Notes under the pieces: generated by a model | The model's input: only the letters and a program-made list of their open reading frames with translations | What the model was told of the DNA's origin: nothing | The model's database searches: none | DNA from: Acidimicrobiales bacterium | Lineage (GTDB): Bacteria > Actinomycetota > Acidimicrobiia > Acidimicrobiales > UBA8190 | DNA: 64,000 nt | Reading direction: 5' to 3' | Assembly (NCBI GenBank): GCA_035531755.1 | Contig: DATKSK010000023.1 | Coordinates: 1-64,000, forward strand | Made by a program: the position numbers and the translations under genes | Shown here: one piece after another, positions 38,051 to 50,845 of the stretch | Layout of the letters: the number at the start of each line of letters is the position of its first letter | Numbering within the stretch: position 1 is the stretch's first letter

Positions 38051-39343
38051 ATGATCGACATCCGACTGGCCCGGGAGGACCCGGATGCCGTGAAGGCGGC
38101 CCTCGCCCGCAAGGGTGTCGACCCGGCCGAGGTCGTCCGCCTGGTCGACGCCGACGGCCGGTCGCGCCAGGCGGTGGGCCGTCGCGACGAGCTGCGGGCC
38201 CGCATCAAGGAGCTGTCGCGCCAGGTGGCCGACGCCCGGCGCTCCGGCGACAGCGCGGCGGCGACCGGGCTCACCGAGGCCAGCCGCGCCCTCGGCGAGG
38301 GGGAGAAGGCGGCCGACGCCGAGGCCACCGCGGCCCAGGCCGAGGTGCGCGAGCTGCTCCTGTGGCTGCCGAACATGCCGGCGGCGGGGGCGCCCGACGG
38401 GGAGGGCCCCGAGGACAATCCCGTGGTGCGCCGGTGGCCGGAGACGGCCCGGGAGTACGCCGAGCACCAGCGCGTCCCGCACTGGGACGTGGGCGCGGCG
38501 CTCGGCATCCTCGACCTCGAACGCGGTGCCAAGCTGTCGGGCTCCATGTTCCCCCTGTTCCGGGGGGCGGGGTCGCGTCTGTTGCGCGCCCTGACCGCCT
38601 TCGCCCTCGACCACCACGCCGACGCCTACGAGGAGATCCGCCCGCCCACGCTGGTGCGCACCGAGACCATGGTGTCGACCGGGCACCTGCCCAAGTTCGC
38701 CGACGAGGCCTACCACCTCGAGCGCGACGACCTGTGGGCAATCCCGACCGCCGAGGTGCCGCTCACCTCCATGTACCGCGGCGACATCCTCGAGGAGGCC
38801 GACCTCCCCCTGCGGCTGACGGCCGCCACCGCCTGCTTCCGGCGCGAAGCGGGGTCGGCGGGGCGCGACACGCGCGGCGTGTTGCGCGTGCACGAGTTCG
38901 ACAAGGTCGAGCTCTTCGCCTACGCCACCGCCGAGCAGTCGCCGGCCGAGCACGAGCAGATGGTGCGGCGCGCCGAGGCCCTGCTGCAGGAGCTCGACCT
39001 CGAGTACCGGGTCGTCGACCTCTGCACCGGCGACCTCGGCAACGCCTCGGCACGCACCTTCGACATCGAGGTGTACGCCCCGGGGTGCGACATGTGGCTC
39101 GAGGCGTCGTCGGTGAGCTGGTGCACCGACTACCAGGCGCGCCGGGCCAACATCCGCTACCGGCCGGCCGACGGGGGCCAGCCCGTGTTCGTCCACACCC
39201 TGAACGGCTCGGCCGTCGCCTGGGCCCGCATCTGGGCGGCGCTGGTCGAGACCGGGCGCCAGGCCGACGGATCGGTCCTGCTACCGGCCGCGCTCGACCG
39301 CTACCTGGGGGGTCACCGGATCATCGAGCCGCCGGCGCGCTGA
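38051..39343 (+). CDS. serS: Seryl-tRNA synthetase
   Basis: The 430-residue class II synthetase begins with the usual coiled-coil arm (residues 30-100). Motif 2 is ACFRREAGSAGRDTRGVLRV followed by HEFDKVELF, the SWCTDYQARRANIRYR block binds serine and tRNA, and motif 3 is NGSAVAWARIWAALVE with its Arg. It charges tRNA-Ser in the cytoplasm. The ATG is the first in frame after the divergent promoter. Confidence 0.95.
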   Translation: MIDIRLAREDPDAVKAALARKGVDPAEVVRLVDADGRSRQAVGRRDELRARIKELSRQVADARRSGDSAAATGLTEASRALGEGEKAADAEATAAQAEVRELLLWLPNMPAAGAPDGEGPEDNPVVRRWPETAREYAEHQRVPHWDVGAALGILDLERGAKLSGSMFPLFRGAGSRLLRALTAFALDHHADAYEEIRPPTLVRTETMVSTGHLPKFADEAYHLERDDLWAIPTAEVPLTSMYRGDILEEADLPLRLTAATACFRREAGSAGRDTRGVLRVHEFDKVELFAYATAEQSPAEHEQMVRRAEALLQELDLEYRVVDLCTGDLGNASARTFDIEVYAPGCDMWLEASSVSWCTDYQARRANIRYRPADGGQPVFVHTLNGSAVAWARIWAALVETGRQADGSVLLPAALDRYLGGHRIIEPPAR

Positions 39344-42195: not shown

Positions 42196-42918
42196 TCACG
42201 AGTCGGTGGGGATCTCGAAGCGGTAGCCGACACCCCGGACCGTCGTGATGATGGCCGGCGACGACGAGTCGGCCTCGACGTGGCTCCGCAATCTCTTGAT
42301 GTGCACGTCCAGGGTCTTCGTGTCCCCCACGTAGTCCGCACCCCAGACCCGGTCGATGAGCGTGTCCCGGGTGAGGACGCGGCCGGCGTTCTCGATCAGC
42401 AGGGCGAGCAGCTCGAACTCCTTGCGCCGCAGGTGGACCTCCTCGCCCCGCACGAACACGCGGTGGCGGTCGGGGTCGACCCGGACGTCGCCCACCTCGA
42501 GCACCCCGTCGTTCCCCGGGGCGACGGAGCCCGATGGGCCGGCCGCGCCGGGCTCCATCTGGGGCACGCGCCGCAGCACGGCCCGCATCCGGGCCACGAG
42601 CTCCCGCAGCCGGTAGGGCTTGGTGACGTAGTCGTCCGCCCCGACCTCGAGGCCCACGACGGTGTCGATCTCGGTCCCCTTGGCCGTGACCATGATGATC
42701 GGGACCCGCGAGCGCGCCCGGATGGCGCGGCACACGTCCACGCCCGAGAGCTTGGGCAGCATGATGTCGAGCAGGACGAGGTCGGGGTCGACGGCGTCGA
42801 ACAGCTGGAGGGCCTCGGGGCCGTCCCGGGCGATGGTGACCTCGAACCCCTCGCGCCCGAGCCCGATCACCAGGGCGTCGACGAACGACTCCTCGTCCTC
42901 GGCGATCAGGACCGTCAC
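42196..42918 (-). CDS. regX3: OmpR/PhoB-family response regulator, RegX3-like
   Basis: The protein has a receiver domain (phospho-Asp in LVLLDIMLPKLSG, conserved Thr in MVTAKG, Lys in TKPYRLREL) and a winged-helix DNA-binding domain ending in VRGVGYRFE. Order and similarity to the sensor upstream indicate the phosphate-responsive SenX3-RegX3 pair. I place the start at the GTG of VTVLIAEDEE. An alternative GTG at 43032, near the sensor stop, would add 38 residues including repeated RDAG units. The gap therefore either encodes a tail or is an untranslated spacer. Confidence 0.88.
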   Translation of the reverse strand: MTVLIAEDEESFVDALVIGLGREGFEVTIARDGPEALQLFDAVDPDLVLLDIMLPKLSGVDVCRAIRARSRVPIIMVTAKGTEIDTVVGLEVGADDYVTKPYRLRELVARMRAVLRRVPQMEPGAAGPSGSVAPGNDGVLEVGDVRVDPDRHRVFVRGEEVHLRRKEFELLALLIENAGRVLTRDTLIDRVWGADYVGDTKTLDVHIKRLRSHVEADSSSPAIITTVRGVGYRFEIPTDS

Positions 42919-43035: not shown

Positions 43036-44301
43036 TCAGCCGACCTCCGAGTGCGCGGGGAGGATGAGCCGGAACGTGGACCCCTCGCCTTCGCGCGAAT
43101 CGACCTCGACATGCCCCTGGTGGTTGGCGGCCACGTGACGGACGATAGACAACCCGAGCCCGGTCCCCCCGCTGTTGCGGCTCCGACCCTGGTCGACCCG
43201 GTAGAAGCGCTCGAAGATGCGGTCGAGGTCGCGTGCCGGGATGCCGACGCCGTGATCCTCGACGTCGAGCCGCACCTGCCCGTCGGTCACGGCGCCCGCG
43301 AAGCGCACCGAGTTCCCGTCGTAGGAGAATTTCACCGCGTTCTCGAGAAGGTTGTACAGCGCGGAGACGAGCTGGCGCCTGTCCCCGAGCACGGTGACCG
43401 GCGGCGGCTCCTCGAGCTCGATCTTGACGTCTCGCTGCTCGGCGGCGGCACGGACGCGCTCGACGGCCTCGGCCATGATGAGGTTGACCAGCACCGGCTC
43501 GCGCGGCGGGGCCTCCTCGGCCTCGATGCGCGACAGGTCGAGCAGGTCGTCGATGATCCGGCTCACCCGGAACGCCTCGGAGTGGATGCGGCTGGCGAGC
43601 CGCTGGGCCACCGTGGGGTCGGCCTCGGACACGAGGGTCTCGGCCAGCAGCCCGAGCGCGCCCATGGGCGTCTTCAGCTCATGGCTGACGTTGGCGACGA
43701 AGTCGCGCCGGATCTCCTCGAGGCGCCGGCGCTCCGACACGTCGTCGATCGCCGCGATGACACCCAGCGTGCGCCGGCCGTCATCGATGAGCTGGGTGGA
43801 CACCGCCAGCGTCCGGCGCGGGGGCCCGTAGAGGTCGAGCGTGCGGTGGGCCGAGCCCTGCTTCCAGGCGTCGGCGAGAAGGTCGACCACGGCCTGTGCG
43901 GCCAGCGCGTCGCCATGGCGACCGCCCATGAGCCCGACGGCGCGGGCGTTGCGGAACACCACCGTGCCGTTCTCGTCGCACACGATGACGCCCTGGGGCA
44001 GCGTGTCGAGGGCACGCCGTAGGCGGATGGCGTCGGCCGACGACTCGGCCACCGCCTCGGCGGCCCGGTCGGTGACGAGCTCCAGATGGTGCAGTGCCGG
44101 CTCGACGCCGGTTCCGCGCTCCTCGGCCGGCGCGTCGACTCCGAGGCGCGATGCCAGGGCCGACAGGCGCTGCTCGAGCGCTTGGCGCCCCGAGCGGCGA
44201 CCGAGGATCGTGGCCACCACGATGCCGACCACGGCGAGCACGCCGAGCCCGGCGAACCCGGCGATCACCACGTTCGACGACACCCCGGTCGTACCGATCA
44301 C
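43036..44301 (-). CDS. senX3: Sensor histidine kinase, SenX3-like
   Basis: The 421-residue kinase has one N-terminal transmembrane helix (VVIAGFAGLGVLAVVGIVVATIL), a PAS domain (LPQGVIVCDENGTVVFRNA), the phospho-acceptor His in FVANVSHELKTPMG, and N, G1 and G2 boxes (LLENAVKFS, DHGVGIP, GGTGLGLSIV). This matches SenX3, which senses phosphate through the Pst system; no pst genes are in the window. The GTG at 44301 starts right before the membrane helix; an in-frame ATG at 44409 would add 36 Arg/Pro-rich residues. It is divergent from the type IV secretion-like operon. Confidence 0.9.
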   Translation of the reverse strand: MIGTTGVSSNVVIAGFAGLGVLAVVGIVVATILGRRSGRQALEQRLSALASRLGVDAPAEERGTGVEPALHHLELVTDRAAEAVAESSADAIRLRRALDTLPQGVIVCDENGTVVFRNARAVGLMGGRHGDALAAQAVVDLLADAWKQGSAHRTLDLYGPPRRTLAVSTQLIDDGRRTLGVIAAIDDVSERRRLEEIRRDFVANVSHELKTPMGALGLLAETLVSEADPTVAQRLASRIHSEAFRVSRIIDDLLDLSRIEAEEAPPREPVLVNLIMAEAVERVRAAAEQRDVKIELEEPPPVTVLGDRRQLVSALYNLLENAVKFSYDGNSVRFAGAVTDGQVRLDVEDHGVGIPARDLDRIFERFYRVDQGRSRNSGGTGLGLSIVRHVAANHQGHVEVDSREGEGSTFRLILPAHSEVG

Positions 44302-44420
44302 GGCACAAGCATGACAGGACTGGCCGCGGGCCGGGTCGGGCCGCCGGCGCAGGCCCGCGACGACAGGTGGCCGGTCGGGAGCTCGTTCCGGCGCGTCTTC
44401 GACCGACATGAAAAATAATG

Positions 44421-44466
44421 GAAAAGCTTGAAAAAGCTTGAAACAGACCAGAAGGCCTTCTATCGT
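44421..44466 (+). promoter_or_regulatory. Promoter of the type IV secretion-like operon with tandem operator-like repeat
   Basis: TTGAAA (44438-44443) and TATCGT (44461-44466) are separated by 17 bp, a good sigma70-type pair. Overlapping the -35 are two 10-bp units of AAAAGCTTGA (44422-44431 and 44432-44441), spaced one helical turn apart, in a patch far more AT-rich than its surroundings. A regulator binding direct repeats, such as a PhoB/RegX3-type protein, could act here. The leader is about 50 nt. Confidence 0.6.
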
Positions 44467-44522
44467 GCTCGGACACACGCCGAACCGGTCACGGCCGGTC
44501 GGCACCGACCAGAGAGGGGATC

Positions 44523-44831
44523 GTGATGGTGTCGTGGGCGGTCCGCGCCGCGGTGTCCGGGGTCACGCTGAACCCGGACACGAGCAACCTTCCCGGAGGC
44601 GCCGTGCTCCAGCACCTCACCGACGGGCTGGGTGGCTGGGCGCTCGTCTTCGCCCTCGTGGGGCTGTTGATCGGCGCGGCCGCGTGGGCGCTCGGGGCCC
44701 ACGCCCAGAACTACCACCAGGCCATCAACGGCAGGCGAACGGTCATGGTGTCGGGACTGGCGGCGCTCCTCATCGGCGCGGCCCCGGCGATCGTCAACTT
44801 CTTCTTCCACGCCGGGCAGGGCGTGCAGTGA
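44523..44831 (+). CDS. Small two-helix membrane protein, pilin-like (DUF6112-like)
   Basis: The 102-residue first gene of the operon has an N-terminal segment with a TLNPDTSNLPGG block and two hydrophobic helices (WALVFALVGLLIGAAAWALG and MVSGLAALLIGAAPAIVNFF) joined by a polar QNYHQAINGRR loop. This layout fits the small VirB2-type subunits of actinobacterial conjugation systems, probably DUF6112; the family call is from memory of such operons. Start codons GTG (44523) and ATG (44526) are adjacent. The TGA overlaps the next GTG. Confidence 0.7.
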   Translation: MMVSWAVRAAVSGVTLNPDTSNLPGGAVLQHLTDGLGGWALVFALVGLLIGAAAWALGAHAQNYHQAINGRRTVMVSGLAALLIGAAPAIVNFFFHAGQGVQ

Positions 44832-46279
44832 CCCTGCACGTCGCGCTCCCCCTGTGTCCGGGGTCGATCCCCGTCGTGGGCACCGTGTGCAACGCGGTGT
44901 CGGGCGTGGCGGGAAAAGCGGCGGGCATCGGCGCCACTGCGGTCTTCGACGCCGCCGGCGCATGGGTGTCGTCGGGGGCGGTGTGGCTCATCGGCCAGGT
45001 GGGTCACGTCATGTCGGCCACCACGAGCGACGACCTGGGGACCGGATGGTTCGGCGCGCACGAGGCGGTCATGGCGGGGCTGGCCGCCGCCGTGGTCGTC
45101 CCCATGGCGTGCTGCGCGGCGATCCAGGCGATCTACCGCCAGAGCCCGTCGATGCTGATGCGCACCTTCCTGGTCCACCTCCCGCTGTCGCTGCTGCTGA
45201 CCGGAGTGGCGGTGACGCTGGTGCGCATCTCCCTGGCCGTGACCGACGCGCTGTCGGCGCGTGTCATGTCGAGTGCCGGGGTCGACACCTCCAATCTCTT
45301 CTCCGGGATGTCGGCGTTCTTCACCACCGTGGGATCCACGCCCGCCGTCCCCGCCTTCGTGGTGTTCGTGAGCGCCCTGCTCGTGTCGCTCGCCGCCCTC
45401 GTGCTCTGGCTCGAGCTCGTTGTGCGCGCCGCCGCGGTGTCGGCGGCGGTGCTGTTCCTACCGCTGGCACTGGCCGCCCTCGTCTGGCCGGCCGTGGCCC
45501 ACTGGTGTCGACGGCTCGCCGACACCATCGCCGCCCTCGTGCTCTCGAAGCTGGTCATCGCGGCGGTGATCTCCCTCGCAGTAGGGGCGCTGGCCGGCGG
45601 CCTCGGGTTGTCGGGCTCGTCCTCGGGCGGGGGGTTCGGGGCCGTGATGGTCGGGATCGCGCTGCTGCTCGTGGCCACGCTGTCGCCGTTCACGCTCCTG
45701 CGACTGGTGCCGGCGGTCGAGGCCGGGGCCGTCGCCCACCTCGAGTCGACGCGGCACCGGCTGCAGTCCGCCGCCCGCGCCGTCGGTGGTCGCGGCAACC
45801 TCGCCCTGGACGAGGTGCGCAAGCTGGGGGGGCCGGGGACTGCGGCGCTGGAGGCCGCGGTCGGGACCGCGGGCGCGGTCGGGACCGCGGGCGCGGTCGG
45901 GACCGTGTCCGCGGGCGCCACGGGCTCGGTGGCAGCGACCGGCTCCGGCGGGTCCGGCGGGTCTGCCGGCTCCGGCGGGTCTGGCGGGTCTGCCGGGGCG
46001 GGCGGACCTGGCGGGTCGGATGGACCGGCCGGGTCGGGGCCGTCGGGATCGATCGCCATGAGGACCGGTCGAGCTTCCCCCGGGTTCGAGCCCGGGGACG
46101 GGGCGAGGTCTGCCGGCCAGTCCGGAGGGAGCGGGTCACGGGCCGTGGCCGGGGCGGATGCCGGCGTGCACGCCGGCCGGCGTGGCGTCAGTGACGGCAC
46201 GACCGCCCCCCTCGCCACGGATCGGTCTGTCACGGACCGAGTGCCGGCCAACGGGGACGTGGACCGTGCCGGCGGGTGA
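44828..46279 (+). CDS. VirB6/TrbL-like polytopic membrane protein
   Basis: The 483-residue protein has about seven transmembrane helices in residues 40-300, including long hydrophobic pairs around AALVLWLELVVRAAAVSAAV, a pattern typical of TrbL/VirB6 inner-membrane channel components. The conserved LWLELxxR stretch also occurs in actinobacterial TrbL homologues. The last 180 residues are low-complexity Gly/Ser/Ala with tandem GTAGAV and GGS units, presumably disordered and cytoplasmic. The GTG overlaps the upstream stop. It probably forms the membrane channel of the secretion machine. Confidence 0.75.
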   Translation: MTLHVALPLCPGSIPVVGTVCNAVSGVAGKAAGIGATAVFDAAGAWVSSGAVWLIGQVGHVMSATTSDDLGTGWFGAHEAVMAGLAAAVVVPMACCAAIQAIYRQSPSMLMRTFLVHLPLSLLLTGVAVTLVRISLAVTDALSARVMSSAGVDTSNLFSGMSAFFTTVGSTPAVPAFVVFVSALLVSLAALVLWLELVVRAAAVSAAVLFLPLALAALVWPAVAHWCRRLADTIAALVLSKLVIAAVISLAVGALAGGLGLSGSSSGGGFGAVMVGIALLLVATLSPFTLLRLVPAVEAGAVAHLESTRHRLQSAARAVGGRGNLALDEVRKLGGPGTAALEAAVGTAGAVGTAGAVGTVSAGATGSVAATGSGGSGGSAGSGGSGGSAGAGGPGGSDGPAGSGPSGSIAMRTGRASPGFEPGDGARSAGQSGGSGSRAVAGADAGVHAGRRGVSDGTTAPLATDRSVTDRVPANGDVDRAGG

Positions 46280-46280
46280 G

Positions 46281-47840
46281 ATGTCGCCGACCCGCTACCG
46301 GTTCGGGCCGCTCGAACGGCGCGGTCTCGTCGCCGGCTGGCGGGGCGGTCAGATCGCCGCCGTGGCGGTCGGGTTGGTGGTGGCCGTCGGTGTCCTCAGG
46401 GCCTCGGCGTCGCCCGCGGGCGTCGTCATGGCGCTGGCCGCCGTGGCCGTCGGTGTGGGCGTCGCCACCTGGCCGATCGTCGGGAGGACGGCCGAGGAGT
46501 GGGCGCCGGACGCGTTGCGGCATGCGCTCAGGCGCCGGCCCCGGCCCTGGCGATCGGGCCCGTTCGCCGGCGTCGACCTGATCGCCGTCGACGTCGGCGT
46601 GAGCACCGCCGGCGTCCTGTGGGACCGGGCCCGCCGCACATACACGGCGGTGCTGGCGGCGTCGGCGCCGGGCTTCGTCCTCCTCGGCGATGACGACAAG
46701 GCCCGACGCGTGGGCGCCTGGGCGGGCGTCCTGGCGTCATTGGCACGCGACGGGTCGGCGGTGCACCGCGTGCAGTGGATCGAGCGGACGCGCCCGCTCG
46801 TCCCGGCCCCCGTGCCTGGTGGCGCTGGTGCCGGGCCCCACGGCGCCGCTCTGTCCGCGCCGGGGGCTGCACCCGTGGGTGGGTCGGCACCGACGGCATC
46901 GATGACGGCTGGAGTGGCGTCGTCGAACGGGGCCGGCGTACGGGCCGCCTCCGGCCTCGACGCCGACGCCGCGGCGCGCGCCTCGTACGAGGCCCTCCTG
47001 GCCGCCGCCGACTACGGGGCGCGCCGACACGAGGTGCTGCTCGCCGTCACGGTGCACGGGGGTCGAGGAGCGCGCGCCGTGCGGGCTGCGGGTGGAGGAA
47101 CGGCTGGGGCTTGCACCGTGCTCCTCCGGGAAGTTGCTGCCCTGCGGCGGCGCCTCGCCGACGCGTCGGTCGATGCCGGTACGGTCCTGGCTCCGGCGGA
47201 GCTGTCCGCCACCGTGCGCGCCGCTTTCGCGCCCGGCGGGGCCGCCGCGCCCGCCGAGGACGGGGACCGCGTCGCGACCGTGCCGTCAGCGTCGCCCGAG
47301 GAAGGCGCCAGCGCCTCGCCGGCCACCTGGCCGTGGCCCATGGGGATCGCCGCCGAGTGGGGCCGCCTGCGCGCCGACGCCACGTGGCACGCCACGTTCT
47401 GGGTGTCGGAATGGCCCCGCATCGACGTCGGGCCGGACTTCCTGGGGCCACTCGTCCTGTCCTCGGACGTCCGGCGCGCCGTGTCCGTCGTCATGGAGCC
47501 ACTGGGCCCGATCGCCGCGGCGCGCAAGGTCGAGCAGGCGCGCACCGCGGACATTGCCGACGCCGAGCTGCGCCGCCGCGGCGGCTTCCTGGCCACGGCC
47601 CGGCGCCGCCGCGAGGAGGAGCTCCTGGCCCGGCGGGAGCTGGAGCTGGCCGACGGCCACGCCCAGTACCGGTTCGCCGGCTACGTCACGGTGAGCGCGC
47701 CCGACCCCGACGCCCTGGAGGAGGCCTGCGGCCGGATCGAACAGTCTGCCGGGCGCGCCGGGCTCGAGCTCCGGCGGTGCTACGGCGACCAGGCCAACGC
47801 CTTCACGTGCGCGTTGCCCCTGGGCCGGGGCCTGCCCTGA
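46281..47840 (+). CDS. SCO6880-like protein: PrgI-type anchor plus VirB4 N-terminal-like domain
   Basis: The 519-residue protein begins with a YRFGPLERRGLVAGWRGGQ block and two transmembrane helices, as in the SCO6880/PrgI-type proteins of actinobacterial conjugation operons. The C-terminal half resembles the non-ATPase N-terminal domain of VirB4 proteins, ending in LRRCYGDQANAFTCALPLGRG, the position where a single-chain VirB4 would continue into its ATPase. No Walker motif is present. The next gene supplies the ATPase, 27 bp downstream. A Pro/Ala-rich insertion occupies residues 180-220. The ATG is 1 nt after the upstream stop. Confidence 0.72.
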   Translation: MSPTRYRFGPLERRGLVAGWRGGQIAAVAVGLVVAVGVLRASASPAGVVMALAAVAVGVGVATWPIVGRTAEEWAPDALRHALRRRPRPWRSGPFAGVDLIAVDVGVSTAGVLWDRARRTYTAVLAASAPGFVLLGDDDKARRVGAWAGVLASLARDGSAVHRVQWIERTRPLVPAPVPGGAGAGPHGAALSAPGAAPVGGSAPTASMTAGVASSNGAGVRAASGLDADAAARASYEALLAAADYGARRHEVLLAVTVHGGRGARAVRAAGGGTAGACTVLLREVAALRRRLADASVDAGTVLAPAELSATVRAAFAPGGAAAPAEDGDRVATVPSASPEEGASASPATWPWPMGIAAEWGRLRADATWHATFWVSEWPRIDVGPDFLGPLVLSSDVRRAVSVVMEPLGPIAAARKVEQARTADIADAELRRRGGFLATARRRREEELLARRELELADGHAQYRFAGYVTVSAPDPDALEEACGRIEQSAGRAGLELRRCYGDQANAFTCALPLGRGLP

Positions 47841-47867
47841 TCCCGGCGCGCCCGGACGGATCACGCC

Positions 47868-49247
47868 ATGGGGACTCCCGCGCACGAAGCCACCACGCGC
47901 CATCTCGGCGCCGCTTACCCGTTCGTCAGCGAGCCCGGCTTGGGCGCCGACGGGGTGCTCGTGGGACGCGACCTGCTCGGAGGAGCGTTCGCGTACGACC
48001 CGTTCGCCCTCTACCGACGGGGCGTGCTCACGAATCCGAACATGGTCGTCGTCGGGCAGATCGGCCGGGGCAAGAGCGCTTTCGTGAAGACCTACCTGTG
48101 GCGTCAGGCCGCCTTCGGTCGCCGGGCCTGGGTCGTGGATCCCAAGGGTGAGTACGGCGCGCTGGCCCGTGCCTGGGGCGTCGAGCCGGTGGCGGTGCGC
48201 CCGGGGGGCGACGTGCGGTTGAACCCGTTGGACGCCGTCCCGTCGAGTGCGGCCCGCGCCGGCGGCGAGCCCGGTGGGGACCAGGTGGACCGCCATCGGT
48301 CCGAGCTGCTCTCCTCGCTGGCGGCGGCGAGCCTCGGACGCCCACTCCTGCCGACCGAGCGCAGCGCACTGGAGCTGGCCGTGGCCGACGCCTCGGCGTT
48401 GCCGCATGGCCCGGCGCACCGCGGCGCCCCGCCACCGGGGCCCACGCTCCCGACGGTGGTGGACGCGCTGCTGCGCCCGACGGCCGCCGCGGCGCGCACC
48501 GTCGGCACCGACGCCGCCGGGTTGGCCGCCGACGGCCGGCACGTGGCGCTCGAATTGCGTCGCCTGGTCGCCGGCGATCTCCGGGGCATGTTCGACGGGC
48601 CGACGTCTCGGGGGATCCGGCTCGACGCCCCGCTCGTCGTCCTCGACCTCTCCGCCGTCTACCACTCCGCCGCGCTCGGCGTGCTGATGACGTGCGCCAC
48701 CGCGTGGTTGCAGGCGGCCCTGGCCGCCGGTGCCGCCGACACTGCCGTCGGCACGACCGGCACCGACGGCGGCGTTGTGCTGGTCGTCGACGAGGCGTGG
48801 GCCATCCTCGCCAACCTCGGCGTGGCGCGCTGGCTCCAGTCGTCGTGGAAGCTGTCGCGCGCCCGGGGTGTGGCCAATGTCGCCGTGCTCCACCGCCTGT
48901 CGGACCTCGAGACGACAGGGGCGGCCGGCTCGGAGCAGGTCGGCCTGGCCCAGGGGCTGCTCGCCGATTCGGAGACACGGGTCGTGTACGCCCAACCCCC
49001 GGGCGAGGTCGAGCGCGCCGCGTCACTGCTGGGCTTGTCGTCCACCGAAGTCGAGCTCGTGCCCCATCTGCGTCGCGGCGTGGCGCTGTGGAAGGTGGGC
49101 ACGCGGTCCTTTCTGGTGGAGCACCGCCTGTCACCCCACGAAGCGACCATCGTCGATACCGACGCCCGCATGGGTGGCGGCGGTGGCAGCGCGCCCAGCG
49201 CACCCGGCGCGCACGGTGCCATCGCCCCTGATCGGTCCGACCGGTGA
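47868..49247 (+). CDS. VirB4-like ATPase (C-terminal ATPase half)
   Basis: The 459-residue protein has Walker A in VVGQIGRGKSAFVKT near residue 65, the following VVDPKGEYGALA, and Walker B in VVLVVDEAWAIL, then the LHRLSDLE and LADSETRVVYAQP blocks characteristic of VirB4/TraC ATPases. It is much shorter than full VirB4 because the N-terminal domain appears to be encoded by the preceding gene. It would energise assembly and transport of the secretion complex. The TGA overlaps the next GTG. Confidence 0.85.
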   Translation: MGTPAHEATTRHLGAAYPFVSEPGLGADGVLVGRDLLGGAFAYDPFALYRRGVLTNPNMVVVGQIGRGKSAFVKTYLWRQAAFGRRAWVVDPKGEYGALARAWGVEPVAVRPGGDVRLNPLDAVPSSAARAGGEPGGDQVDRHRSELLSSLAAASLGRPLLPTERSALELAVADASALPHGPAHRGAPPPGPTLPTVVDALLRPTAAAARTVGTDAAGLAADGRHVALELRRLVAGDLRGMFDGPTSRGIRLDAPLVVLDLSAVYHSAALGVLMTCATAWLQAALAAGAADTAVGTTGTDGGVVLVVDEAWAILANLGVARWLQSSWKLSRARGVANVAVLHRLSDLETTGAAGSEQVGLAQGLLADSETRVVYAQPPGEVERAASLLGLSSTEVELVPHLRRGVALWKVGTRSFLVEHRLSPHEATIVDTDARMGGGGGSAPSAPGAHGAIAPDRSDR

Positions 49248-50845
49248 GCGGGCTCGTGCCGGTCGTCCTGGCGGTGGCGGCGGGATGGGGCGTGGTGGTG
49301 TCCCGGAGCGGGGGGCGCGCCGGGTCGTTCGGACACCGGCGTCCGGGCCCGGCGCAGGGCGCGCCGGGACGGTCCGTCCTGCCGGGCCGGACGCGGTGGG
49401 GTGCGGCTCGCTCCCGGCCCGACGACGACCCGGCTCGCTGGGCCACGCCCCGCGATGCCCGTCCCTTGGCCGTACGCGGGCCCACGCCTGGCCGGCTGTC
49501 GCTCGGTGTGGCGCGCCGTCGGTTGCTGGCGGCCGAGCGCGGTCACTCCGTGCTCGTCGTCGGACCGACCCAGAGCCGCAAGACGAGCGGCTTCGCCGTG
49601 CCCGCCATCCTCGAGTGGGCGGGGCCCGTGGTGGCGGCGTCGGTGAAGTCCGACCTCGTCCGCAACACCATGGCCTGGCGCCGCCGGTGCGGACGGGTGT
49701 CGGTGTACGACCCGATGGCCGTGACCGGGCTGGCGCGGGCGTCGTGGTCCCCGCTCCAGGCGGCGGTGACATGGGAGGGCGCACGCCGCATCGCGCAGTC
49801 GCTGACCGAGGTGGCCCGGTCCTCGGCGGGATCGATGACCGACGGCGACTTCTGGTACTCGACGGCGGCCAAGCTCCTCGCGCCGCTGCTGCTGGCCGCC
49901 GCCGCCTCGGGCCGGACGATGGCGGACGTCGTCCGCTGGATCGACACCCAGGAGGTGGACGAGGTCTACGACGCCCTCATGATGTCCGGCGACGGCCCGG
50001 CCCTCCAGGCGGCCCGGGCCTCGTGGGCACGCGACGACCGCCAGCGCAGCGCGGTCTACACGACGGCGGAGACGGTGGTGGAGGTCTTCGCCGACCCCGT
50101 GGTGGCGACCTCCGAGTGCCAACCACGTGCCGACGCCGGCGCTGACTGCGCCGCGGGCGCCGCGGGCGCCGCGGGCGCCGCGGGCGCCGGTGCGAGCCCG
50201 GCCGCCGTGGCGGGGGAGGCGTTCGACCCGGTGCGCATGCTCGACGAGTCCGGCACGCTCTACCTCTGCGCGCCGGCACACGATCAGCGCCGGCTCCGTC
50301 CGGTGTTCGCCACCCTGGTCGCCCAGGTGGTCGAGGCCGCCTACGAGCGCGCCTCGAGGCTCGGGTCGCCCCTCGACCCGCCCCTCCTCGTGGTGCTCGA
50401 CGAGGCCGCCAACGTCGCCCCCCTGGCCGAGCTCGACGTGCTGGCGTCGACGGCGGCCGGCCATGGCGTGCAGCTCGTGACGGTCTGGCAGGACCTCGCC
50501 CAGGTGCACGCCCGCTACGGCGCGCGGGCGGGGAGCGTCGTGAACAACCACCGGGTGAAGGTGTTCCTGTCGGGCATCGCCGATCCCGGCACGCTCGAGC
50601 ACGCCAGCGCGCTGATCGGCGACACCGAGCGTCGCTCGGTGACGACCACGGTCGACGGGTACGGCGCCGCCTCGGTGACCGAGTCCCCGGCCTTCCGGCG
50701 GCTGGCGCCCGCAGACGCCCTGCGGCGCATCCGCCCCGGTGAAGGAGTGGTGGTGTCCGGCCACCTCCCGCCGATCCGGCTCGCCCTGCGCCCCTGGCAG
50801 GACGATCGTGCACTGCGGGCACGCGCCGAGGCCGACGCCACGTAG
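49244..50845 (+). CDS. VirD4/TraG-like coupling ATPase
   Basis: The 533-residue protein has a single short N-terminal hydrophobic segment, Walker A GPTQSRKTSGF near residue 107, Walker B LLVVLDEAANVAPL and the downstream VTVWQDLAQVHARYG block of TraG/VirD4 coupling proteins. These recruit substrates, usually relaxase-DNA complexes, to type IV machines. An Ala/Gly repeat (GAAGAAGAAG) interrupts the middle at about residue 305. It ends the operon; the P450 gene 17 bp later has its own -10 element. Confidence 0.86.
   Translation: MSGLVPVVLAVAAGWGVVVSRSGGRAGSFGHRRPGPAQGAPGRSVLPGRTRWGAARSRPDDDPARWATPRDARPLAVRGPTPGRLSLGVARRRLLAAERGHSVLVVGPTQSRKTSGFAVPAILEWAGPVVAASVKSDLVRNTMAWRRRCGRVSVYDPMAVTGLARASWSPLQAAVTWEGARRIAQSLTEVARSSAGSMTDGDFWYSTAAKLLAPLLLAAAASGRTMADVVRWIDTQEVDEVYDALMMSGDGPALQAARASWARDDRQRSAVYTTAETVVEVFADPVVATSECQPRADAGADCAAGAAGAAGAAGAGASPAAVAGEAFDPVRMLDESGTLYLCAPAHDQRRLRPVFATLVAQVVEAAYERASRLGSPLDPPLLVVLDEAANVAPLAELDVLASTAAGHGVQLVTVWQDLAQVHARYGARAGSVVNNHRVKVFLSGIADPGTLEHASALIGDTERRSVTTTVDGYGAASVTESPAFRRLAPADALRRIRPGEGVVVSGHLPPIRLALRPWQDDRALRARAEADAT

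Follow-up and report, generated by a model that had tools for sequence, protein, structure and literature searches.

The cassette and its predicted products

The 64,000-nucleotide window analysed here (positions 1 to 64,000 of contig DATKSK010000023.1 in the Acidimicrobiales bacterium assembly GCA_035531755.1; contig C23 of a 3.28 Mb genome in 77 contigs) encodes, at 44523-50845 on the + strand, a cassette of five tightly packed, co-oriented open reading frames (ORFs) related to components of type IV secretion systems (T4SS). Adjoining genes either overlap by 4 bp or are separated by 1 to 27 bp. The first-pass annotation, made from the sequence alone, had named these same five gene types, all of which are present on the + strand and are linked to T4SS-type families by profile matches, in part below the cut-off; the interval it gave, 44421-50845, ends correctly and starts too early, taking in ~100 bp of non-coding DNA. 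The five genes are:

44523..44831, +, VirB2/TrbC-like two-helix pilin (DUF6112), 102 amino acids (aa); PF19607, E 2.5e-8, over the cut-off
44828..46279, +, VirB6/TrbL-like (SCO6881-like) membrane protein, 483 aa; SCO6881_fam, E 1.6e-7, below the cut-off
46281..47840, +, SCO6880-family protein, two transmembrane (TM) helices in a VirB3-like position followed by a VirB4 N-terminal domain; NF042935, E 6e-74
47868..49247, +, VirB4 ATPase, C-terminal motor domain only; Walker A motif GQIGRGKSA
49244..50845, +, VirD4/TraG-type coupling ATPase, 533 aa; PF02534, E 8.5e-33, and PF12696, E 5.5e-19, both over the cut-off

The pilin gene has an alternative start, ATG at 44526, and its product matches the TrbC/VirB2 model below the cut-off (E 0.01). 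The assignment of the second product to VirB6 is a weak one: its structure model is all-helical and of moderate confidence (predicted local distance difference test score, pLDDT, 69.5), and TrwI/VirB6 chains recur among the best rows of a Foldseek search against the PDB, but with E > 0.05. The C-terminal ~140 residues of this protein (window 45860-46279) form a Gly/Ser/Ala-rich low-complexity tail that is predicted to be disordered.

The third product scores 249.6 bits against NF042935 (cut-off 60), which assigns it to the SCO6880 family. Its AlphaFold2 model (pLDDT 81) has a two-helix hairpin at the N-terminus, and residues 90-519 resemble the N-domain of R388 TrwK/VirB4 (Z 24.8, 332 residues, 3.9 Å). 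The fourth gene encodes the matching motor: AAA_10 is detected just below the cut-off (E 5e-6), and VirB4-type NCBIfam models with E down to 4e-17 also remain below theirs; the VirB4 profile (A1) finds the C-domain of a solved Thermoanaerobacter-type VirB4 (4ag5) with an E-value of 3e-26. The Walker A residues G66-S70 and the acidic pair D308/E309 are invariant in an alignment of 23 orthologues. Given the N-terminal hairpin and the TrwK/VirB4 N-domain fold in the model of the SCO6880-family protein, the two genes are best read as a split VirB4 carrying a VirB3-like hairpin. The same model also resembles EccE of the ESX-3 type VII secretion system, TM hairpin included (Z 18.3, 278 residues), and the protein weakly matches the Pfam EccE profile (E 0.03); SCO6880-family proteins may therefore be a link between VirB3/VirB4-N and EccE.

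Among the hallmarks of a conjugation-type T4SS, the cassette thus includes a VirB4 ATPase, with N-domain and motor encoded by two genes, and a VirD4/TraG protein; no VirB7-10 outer-membrane set was seen. A role as a defence system was considered and rejected, the sole match being a weak mad8 hit for VirB4. In one relative (G002), additional VirB4 fragments are inserted between the SCO6880 and VirB4 genes (L033:7309-12492), and ~5.7 kb of small genes follows VirD4 (L033:12492-18172); together, these features possibly mark a rearrangement hotspot.

Chromosomal position and inheritance of the cassette

The genes around the cassette in the window encode, besides serS, a pyridoxal phosphate-dependent decarboxylase, a flavin mononucleotide (FMN) oxidoreductase, a response regulator, a histidine kinase, a P450, an amidase and a nitroreductase; judging by these family calls, the cassette is set among ordinary chromosomal genes. 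The core-gene neighbours listed in the first-pass annotation, senX3-regX3 and serS, are confirmed, its bluB being the nitroreductase. The features that recur next to the cassette, named by family call and synteny where they are genes, are:

38051..39343, +, serS, conserved boundary gene
42196..42918, -, regX3-like response regulator, conserved neighbour
43036..44301, -, senX3-like histidine kinase, divergent neighbour kept with the cassette
44302..44522, no strand, divergent intergenic region between senX3 and the pilin gene, site of an NlpC/P60-SLT (VirB1-like) gene in some relatives

The mapping of window proteins covered 40 loci from relatives together with 80 named loci taken from scanned GTDB genomes. 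The shared order is serS>, <regX3, <senX3, (optional hydrolase), pilin>, VirB6>, SCO6880>, VirB4>, VirD4>. By manual count, the pilin gene can be seen in 58 loci, and in 48 of them senX3 is its divergent neighbour, mostly with serS as well; this position also holds in the small-genome family f23 (L171, L175, L176). The named carrier records belong to Acidimicrobiales and Acidimicrobiaceae and include the isolate Aciditerrimonas ferrireducens MV1 (L170).

The distances between VirB4 proteins follow the pattern of pafC, a housekeeping gene not linked to the cassette (Mantel r 0.82, p 0.0005). With serS, VirB4 showed no clear tracking (r 0.35, p 0.11), an outcome for which a divergent serS at one locus is at least partly responsible; pafC proved the better marker. 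The ratios of nonsynonymous to synonymous substitution rates (dN/dS) of the five cassette genes, calculated by the Nei-Gojobori method against two relatives, are 0.11-0.39. The conserved position, the pafC-like distances and the dN/dS values therefore support vertical inheritance of the cassette under purifying selection, in agreement with the earlier proposal of a chromosomally fixed system. That the cluster is a real T4SS locus, fixed in the chromosomes of a large or deep branch of Acidimicrobiales, appears well supported by these comparisons.

The reading of the window locus as an integrative and conjugative element (ICE) was rejected. No relaxase or integrase lies beside the cassette, nor is either among the 25 of 62 families listed for the rest of the window proteins, and the first-pass annotation had likewise seen neither; the relaxase of this genome is on another contig (see below), and the conservation of the cassette position across families counts against sporadic presence. 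No empty site could be defined among the genomes that lack the cassette because these have senX3-regX3 elsewhere, away from serS.

The unlinked relaxase and second TraG-like ATPase

A search of the whole window genome detected exactly one TrwC/MOBF relaxase, unlinked to the cassette (C31:76146-76964; PF08751, E 4e-70), and a search for coupling proteins identified a second TraG-like ATPase, also unlinked:

L071:9648-10997, -, MOBF relaxase, 449 aa
C55:32887-34383 (= L241:9887-11383), putatively soluble TraG-like ATPase

The relaxase scores 204.9 bits against the MobF model (cut-off 100) and aligns to TrwC (1omh) across its relaxase domain with an E-value of 4e-55. The catalytic tyrosine and the three metal-binding histidines of MOBF relaxases, Tyr14 and His149/160/162, are invariant among 18 orthologues, and dN/dS for the gene is 0.21-0.36 (Nei-Gojobori). 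A MOBP relaxase (PF03432) was not found in the window genome and is present in two of the 99 relatives. The relaxase gene is located directly downstream of pafB-pafC (PF19187, WYL), in the gene order r14-r13-(ctaG)-pafB-pafC-relaxase that is conserved in relatives. PafBC is a DNA-damage transcription activator of mycobacteria (PMC6789036); no mention of an association between pafBC and a relaxase was found in the literature searched. Matches to a PafBC-type promoter consensus upstream of the pilin gene, the relaxase, the second ATPase and imuA' were no better than those in shuffled sequences, except in one relative.

The second ATPase seems to lack membrane helices and hence to be soluble, because its sequence begins almost directly at the Walker A region. 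Its gene is just upstream of imuA', imuB and dnaE2 (imuA' and dnaE2 were named by models over the cut-off; for imuB, the gene's position and a weak match to polymerase IV were used), and this order is found throughout the window family wherever the context is available. In other families, the second ATPase adjoins the relaxase (L081, L082, L087, L088, L172, L185); in four of these loci (L081, L082, L087, L172), pafB-pafC-relaxase faces ATPase-HU-PIG-L-cofC-gpsA. Since the two genes are neighbours in other families, the window family appears to have split a formerly contiguous relaxase-ATPase block. A further TraG/HerA-like ATPase is encoded, as is a recombinase-like protein, on a separate short contig of the window genome (L242; G000:C34:1-8002), a candidate for an unrelated mobile element.

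We read the cassette, the relaxase and the second ATPase as one system because they are joined in relatives, are inherited together, and decay together. The relaxase and pilin genes are immediate neighbours in L054, L058, L154, L155, L158, L164 and L169. The first-pass annotation had taken a relaxase just outside a conserved cassette as evidence against a fixed system; none lies there at the window locus, and the juxtaposition is found in these relatives. Among the 99 relatives, with cassette presence assigned by hand from score thresholds and synteny, 38 have both the cassette and the second ATPase, four the cassette only, one the ATPase only, and 56 neither. A pafC-linked relaxase is present in 27 of the 42 genomes with the cassette vs one of the 57 without it; of the 15 cassette-bearing genomes that lack such a relaxase, several are fragmented and have no good pafC match, and in two the relaxase gene is located at the cassette. 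The distances of VirB4 and relaxase are correlated (Mantel r 0.79, p 0.0005).

The ATPase-only genome (G008) is a member of the window family in which no cassette of the fixed type was found. Its relaxase has lost residues 1-171, and with them the tyrosine and the histidine motif, and its second ATPase gene is interrupted by a stop at the lysine of Walker A. The place of the N-terminal half of the relaxase is occupied by methionine-biosynthesis-like genes. These changes in G008 map to L262:5739-6662 and L261:1341-2780.

The description of the locus as relaxase-less holds at the cassette itself and fails for the genome; the notion of a system without a relaxase of its own fails with it, because a relaxase elsewhere on the chromosome travels with the cassette in evolution. 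The earlier suggestion of a machine for export or DNA transfer is narrowed accordingly: export without DNA processing is no longer the simplest interpretation given the co-inherited relaxase and second ATPase and the adjacency of relaxase and pilin genes in relatives. T4SS can be adapted for protein export, and the absence of a relaxase from the window locus, together with a VirD4 that is compatible with protein substrates, would fit a chromosomal system exporting effectors or surface proteins without a DNA substrate; the domesticated genes for relaxase and second ATPase would then be separate from it. We consider this unlikely in view of how tightly the cassette is co-inherited with the second TraG-like ATPase and with a relaxase whose catalytic residues are conserved, of their physical joining in relatives and of the joint decay in G008; moreover, no effector gene was seen within the conserved cassette.

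Predicted function and known relatives

With some confidence, we favour the view that the three loci represent a machine for conjugation-type translocation of DNA, taken into the chromosome of an ancestor of a deep Acidimicrobiales branch and now passed on vertically as three separate pieces; its substrate is probably chromosomal single-stranded DNA. In the proposed mechanism, the cassette would supply the pilin, the VirB6-like protein, the split VirB3/VirB4 and VirD4; the pafBC locus would supply the MOBF relaxase; and the soluble TraG-like ATPase would come from the imuA'B-dnaE2 locus in the window family and from beside the relaxase in others. The relaxase would nick a chromosomal origin of transfer (oriT) and remain on the 5' end via its tyrosine; the soluble ATPase, VirD4 or both would deliver the relaxase-DNA complex to the membrane, where VirB4 and VirD4 would power its passage, by way of the VirB6/pilin channel, to an adjacent cell. 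Speculatively, the soluble ATPase may replace the motor activity of the absent TrwC helicase part. We infer the nicking, export and transfer to a recipient, as well as any regulation by PafBC or SenX3-RegX3, from the families and arrangement of the genes.

More tentatively, with the relaxase tied to PafBC and the second ATPase to ImuA'B-DnaE2, these loci could form an inherited chromosomal mating system, dispersed and non-mobile, that serves DNA-damage-linked exchange of host DNA. Conjugation machines are usually seen as parts of plasmids or ICEs; here, a near-complete set of channel, motor, coupling proteins and relaxase resides at fixed chromosomal loci and is kept under purifying selection in many families, including that of the cultured Aciditerrimonas ferrireducens. 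Should this set indeed carry DNA, the host itself would own a path of gene exchange, one whose connection to DNA-damage regulation could be tested. The links to DNA repair genes would also suit DNA uptake for natural transformation, and VirB4-based uptake exists in the ComB system of Helicobacter; a conserved relaxase together with coupling proteins of the VirD4 type is, however, characteristic of export, which makes uptake highly improbable.

Several observations weigh against a conjugation-type machine. No VirB8 homologue is present among the cassette genes in the window, a possible VirB8-like gene in some relatives (L045, L135, L149) being assigned by eye without a Pfam hit. As previously annotated, a VirB1-type hydrolase is lacking at the window locus, which holds for the window family and not for those relatives that have the NlpC/P60-SLT gene between senX3 and the pilin gene; other NlpC-like genes occur elsewhere in the window genome. 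The relaxase of the window family lacks the TrwC helicase part, and the 330 bp upstream of the relaxase, aligned in ten genomes, contain no oriT-like conserved block. In the regX3-senX3 tree, the cassette-bearing genomes come out as a single lineage, so that the co-occurrence counts mostly reflect one ancient gain with retention rather than independent events, and family-level Fisher tests overstate the co-occurrence. Most of the genomes are fragmented metagenome-assembled genomes, and joint decay was seen in one genome only. Finally, the homologous cmd cluster of Streptomyces affects development: mutants of the chromosomal, co-transcribed S. coelicolor cmdABCDEF (SCO4126-4131), which is conserved among Streptomyces species, show segregation and sporulation defects, and transfer of an SLP2-derived plasmid is unaffected (PMC2782261).

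The S. coelicolor clusters cmd and SCO6871-6884 are the closest described chromosomal counterparts of the Acidimicrobiales cassette. Matched by family names rather than by direct alignment, cmd shares a VirB4-like (CmdB), an SCO6880-like (CmdC) and an SCO6881-like protein (CmdD; here below the cut-off), encoded in a chromosomal operon. A machine of this kind, acting within the cell or envelope in chromosome segregation or differentiation, with the relaxase and ATPase working on the cell's own DNA, would be consistent with the cmd phenotype and with the DNA-repair context of pafBC and imuA'B-dnaE2. However, cmd has been described with one ATP-binding and five membrane proteins and without VirD4, a relaxase, a pafBC-relaxase pair or an imuA'B-linked TraG, whereas VirD4, the relaxase and the second TraG-like ATPase are all conserved in the Acidimicrobiales system; we judge such a role to be an outside chance. 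A DNA-translocating machine in Acidimicrobiales would provide a mechanistic relative for the cmd cluster and its unexplained segregation phenotype.

Homologous VirB4 and SCO6880 modules are also shared with SLP2 and other actinobacterial T4SS plasmids and ICEs. The genes SLP2.19-23 of the linear plasmid SLP2 are a homologous set required for its own transfer (PMC2782261). VirB4 homologues were detected on 153 plasmid records, all below 60% identity, and actinobacterial plasmids are among the carriers. Unlike these mobile elements, the Acidimicrobiales system is dispersed, chromosomally fixed and vertically inherited. With R388 and its MOBF relaxase TrwC it shares the aligned relaxase domain, including the tyrosine and three histidines, and the TrwK-like fold of the VirB4 N-domain; in contrast to TrwC, the relaxase of the window family is 449 aa long, without a helicase part, and unlinked to the T4SS. 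Other chromosomal T4SS are known, namely, the genetic island of Neisseria gonorrhoeae, ComB of Helicobacter and rvh of Rickettsia, which is also scattered; these differ from the present system in both taxa and component sets. A 2011 survey of actinobacterial ICEs reported no actinomycete integrative and conjugative elements (AICEs) in Acidimicrobidae (PMC3218068).

The related VirB4 genes on plasmids, and homologous cassettes in mobile-looking settings such as that of Salsipaludibacter, could suggest that the three loci are scattered, disused remains of an old ICE. This is very improbable given the dN/dS values of 0.11-0.39, the catalytic residues that are intact across families and the positions held in many of them. 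In Salsipaludibacter albus (L149, L203), which we take to lie outside Acidimicrobiales, the NlpC/P60-SLT hydrolase, the VirB8-like gene, the cassette and a 1071-aa relaxase are encoded on one contig within ~25 kb. With the relaxase shortly beyond the cassette, this arrangement resembles an intact integrative element, and it is a plausible picture of the mobile ancestor.

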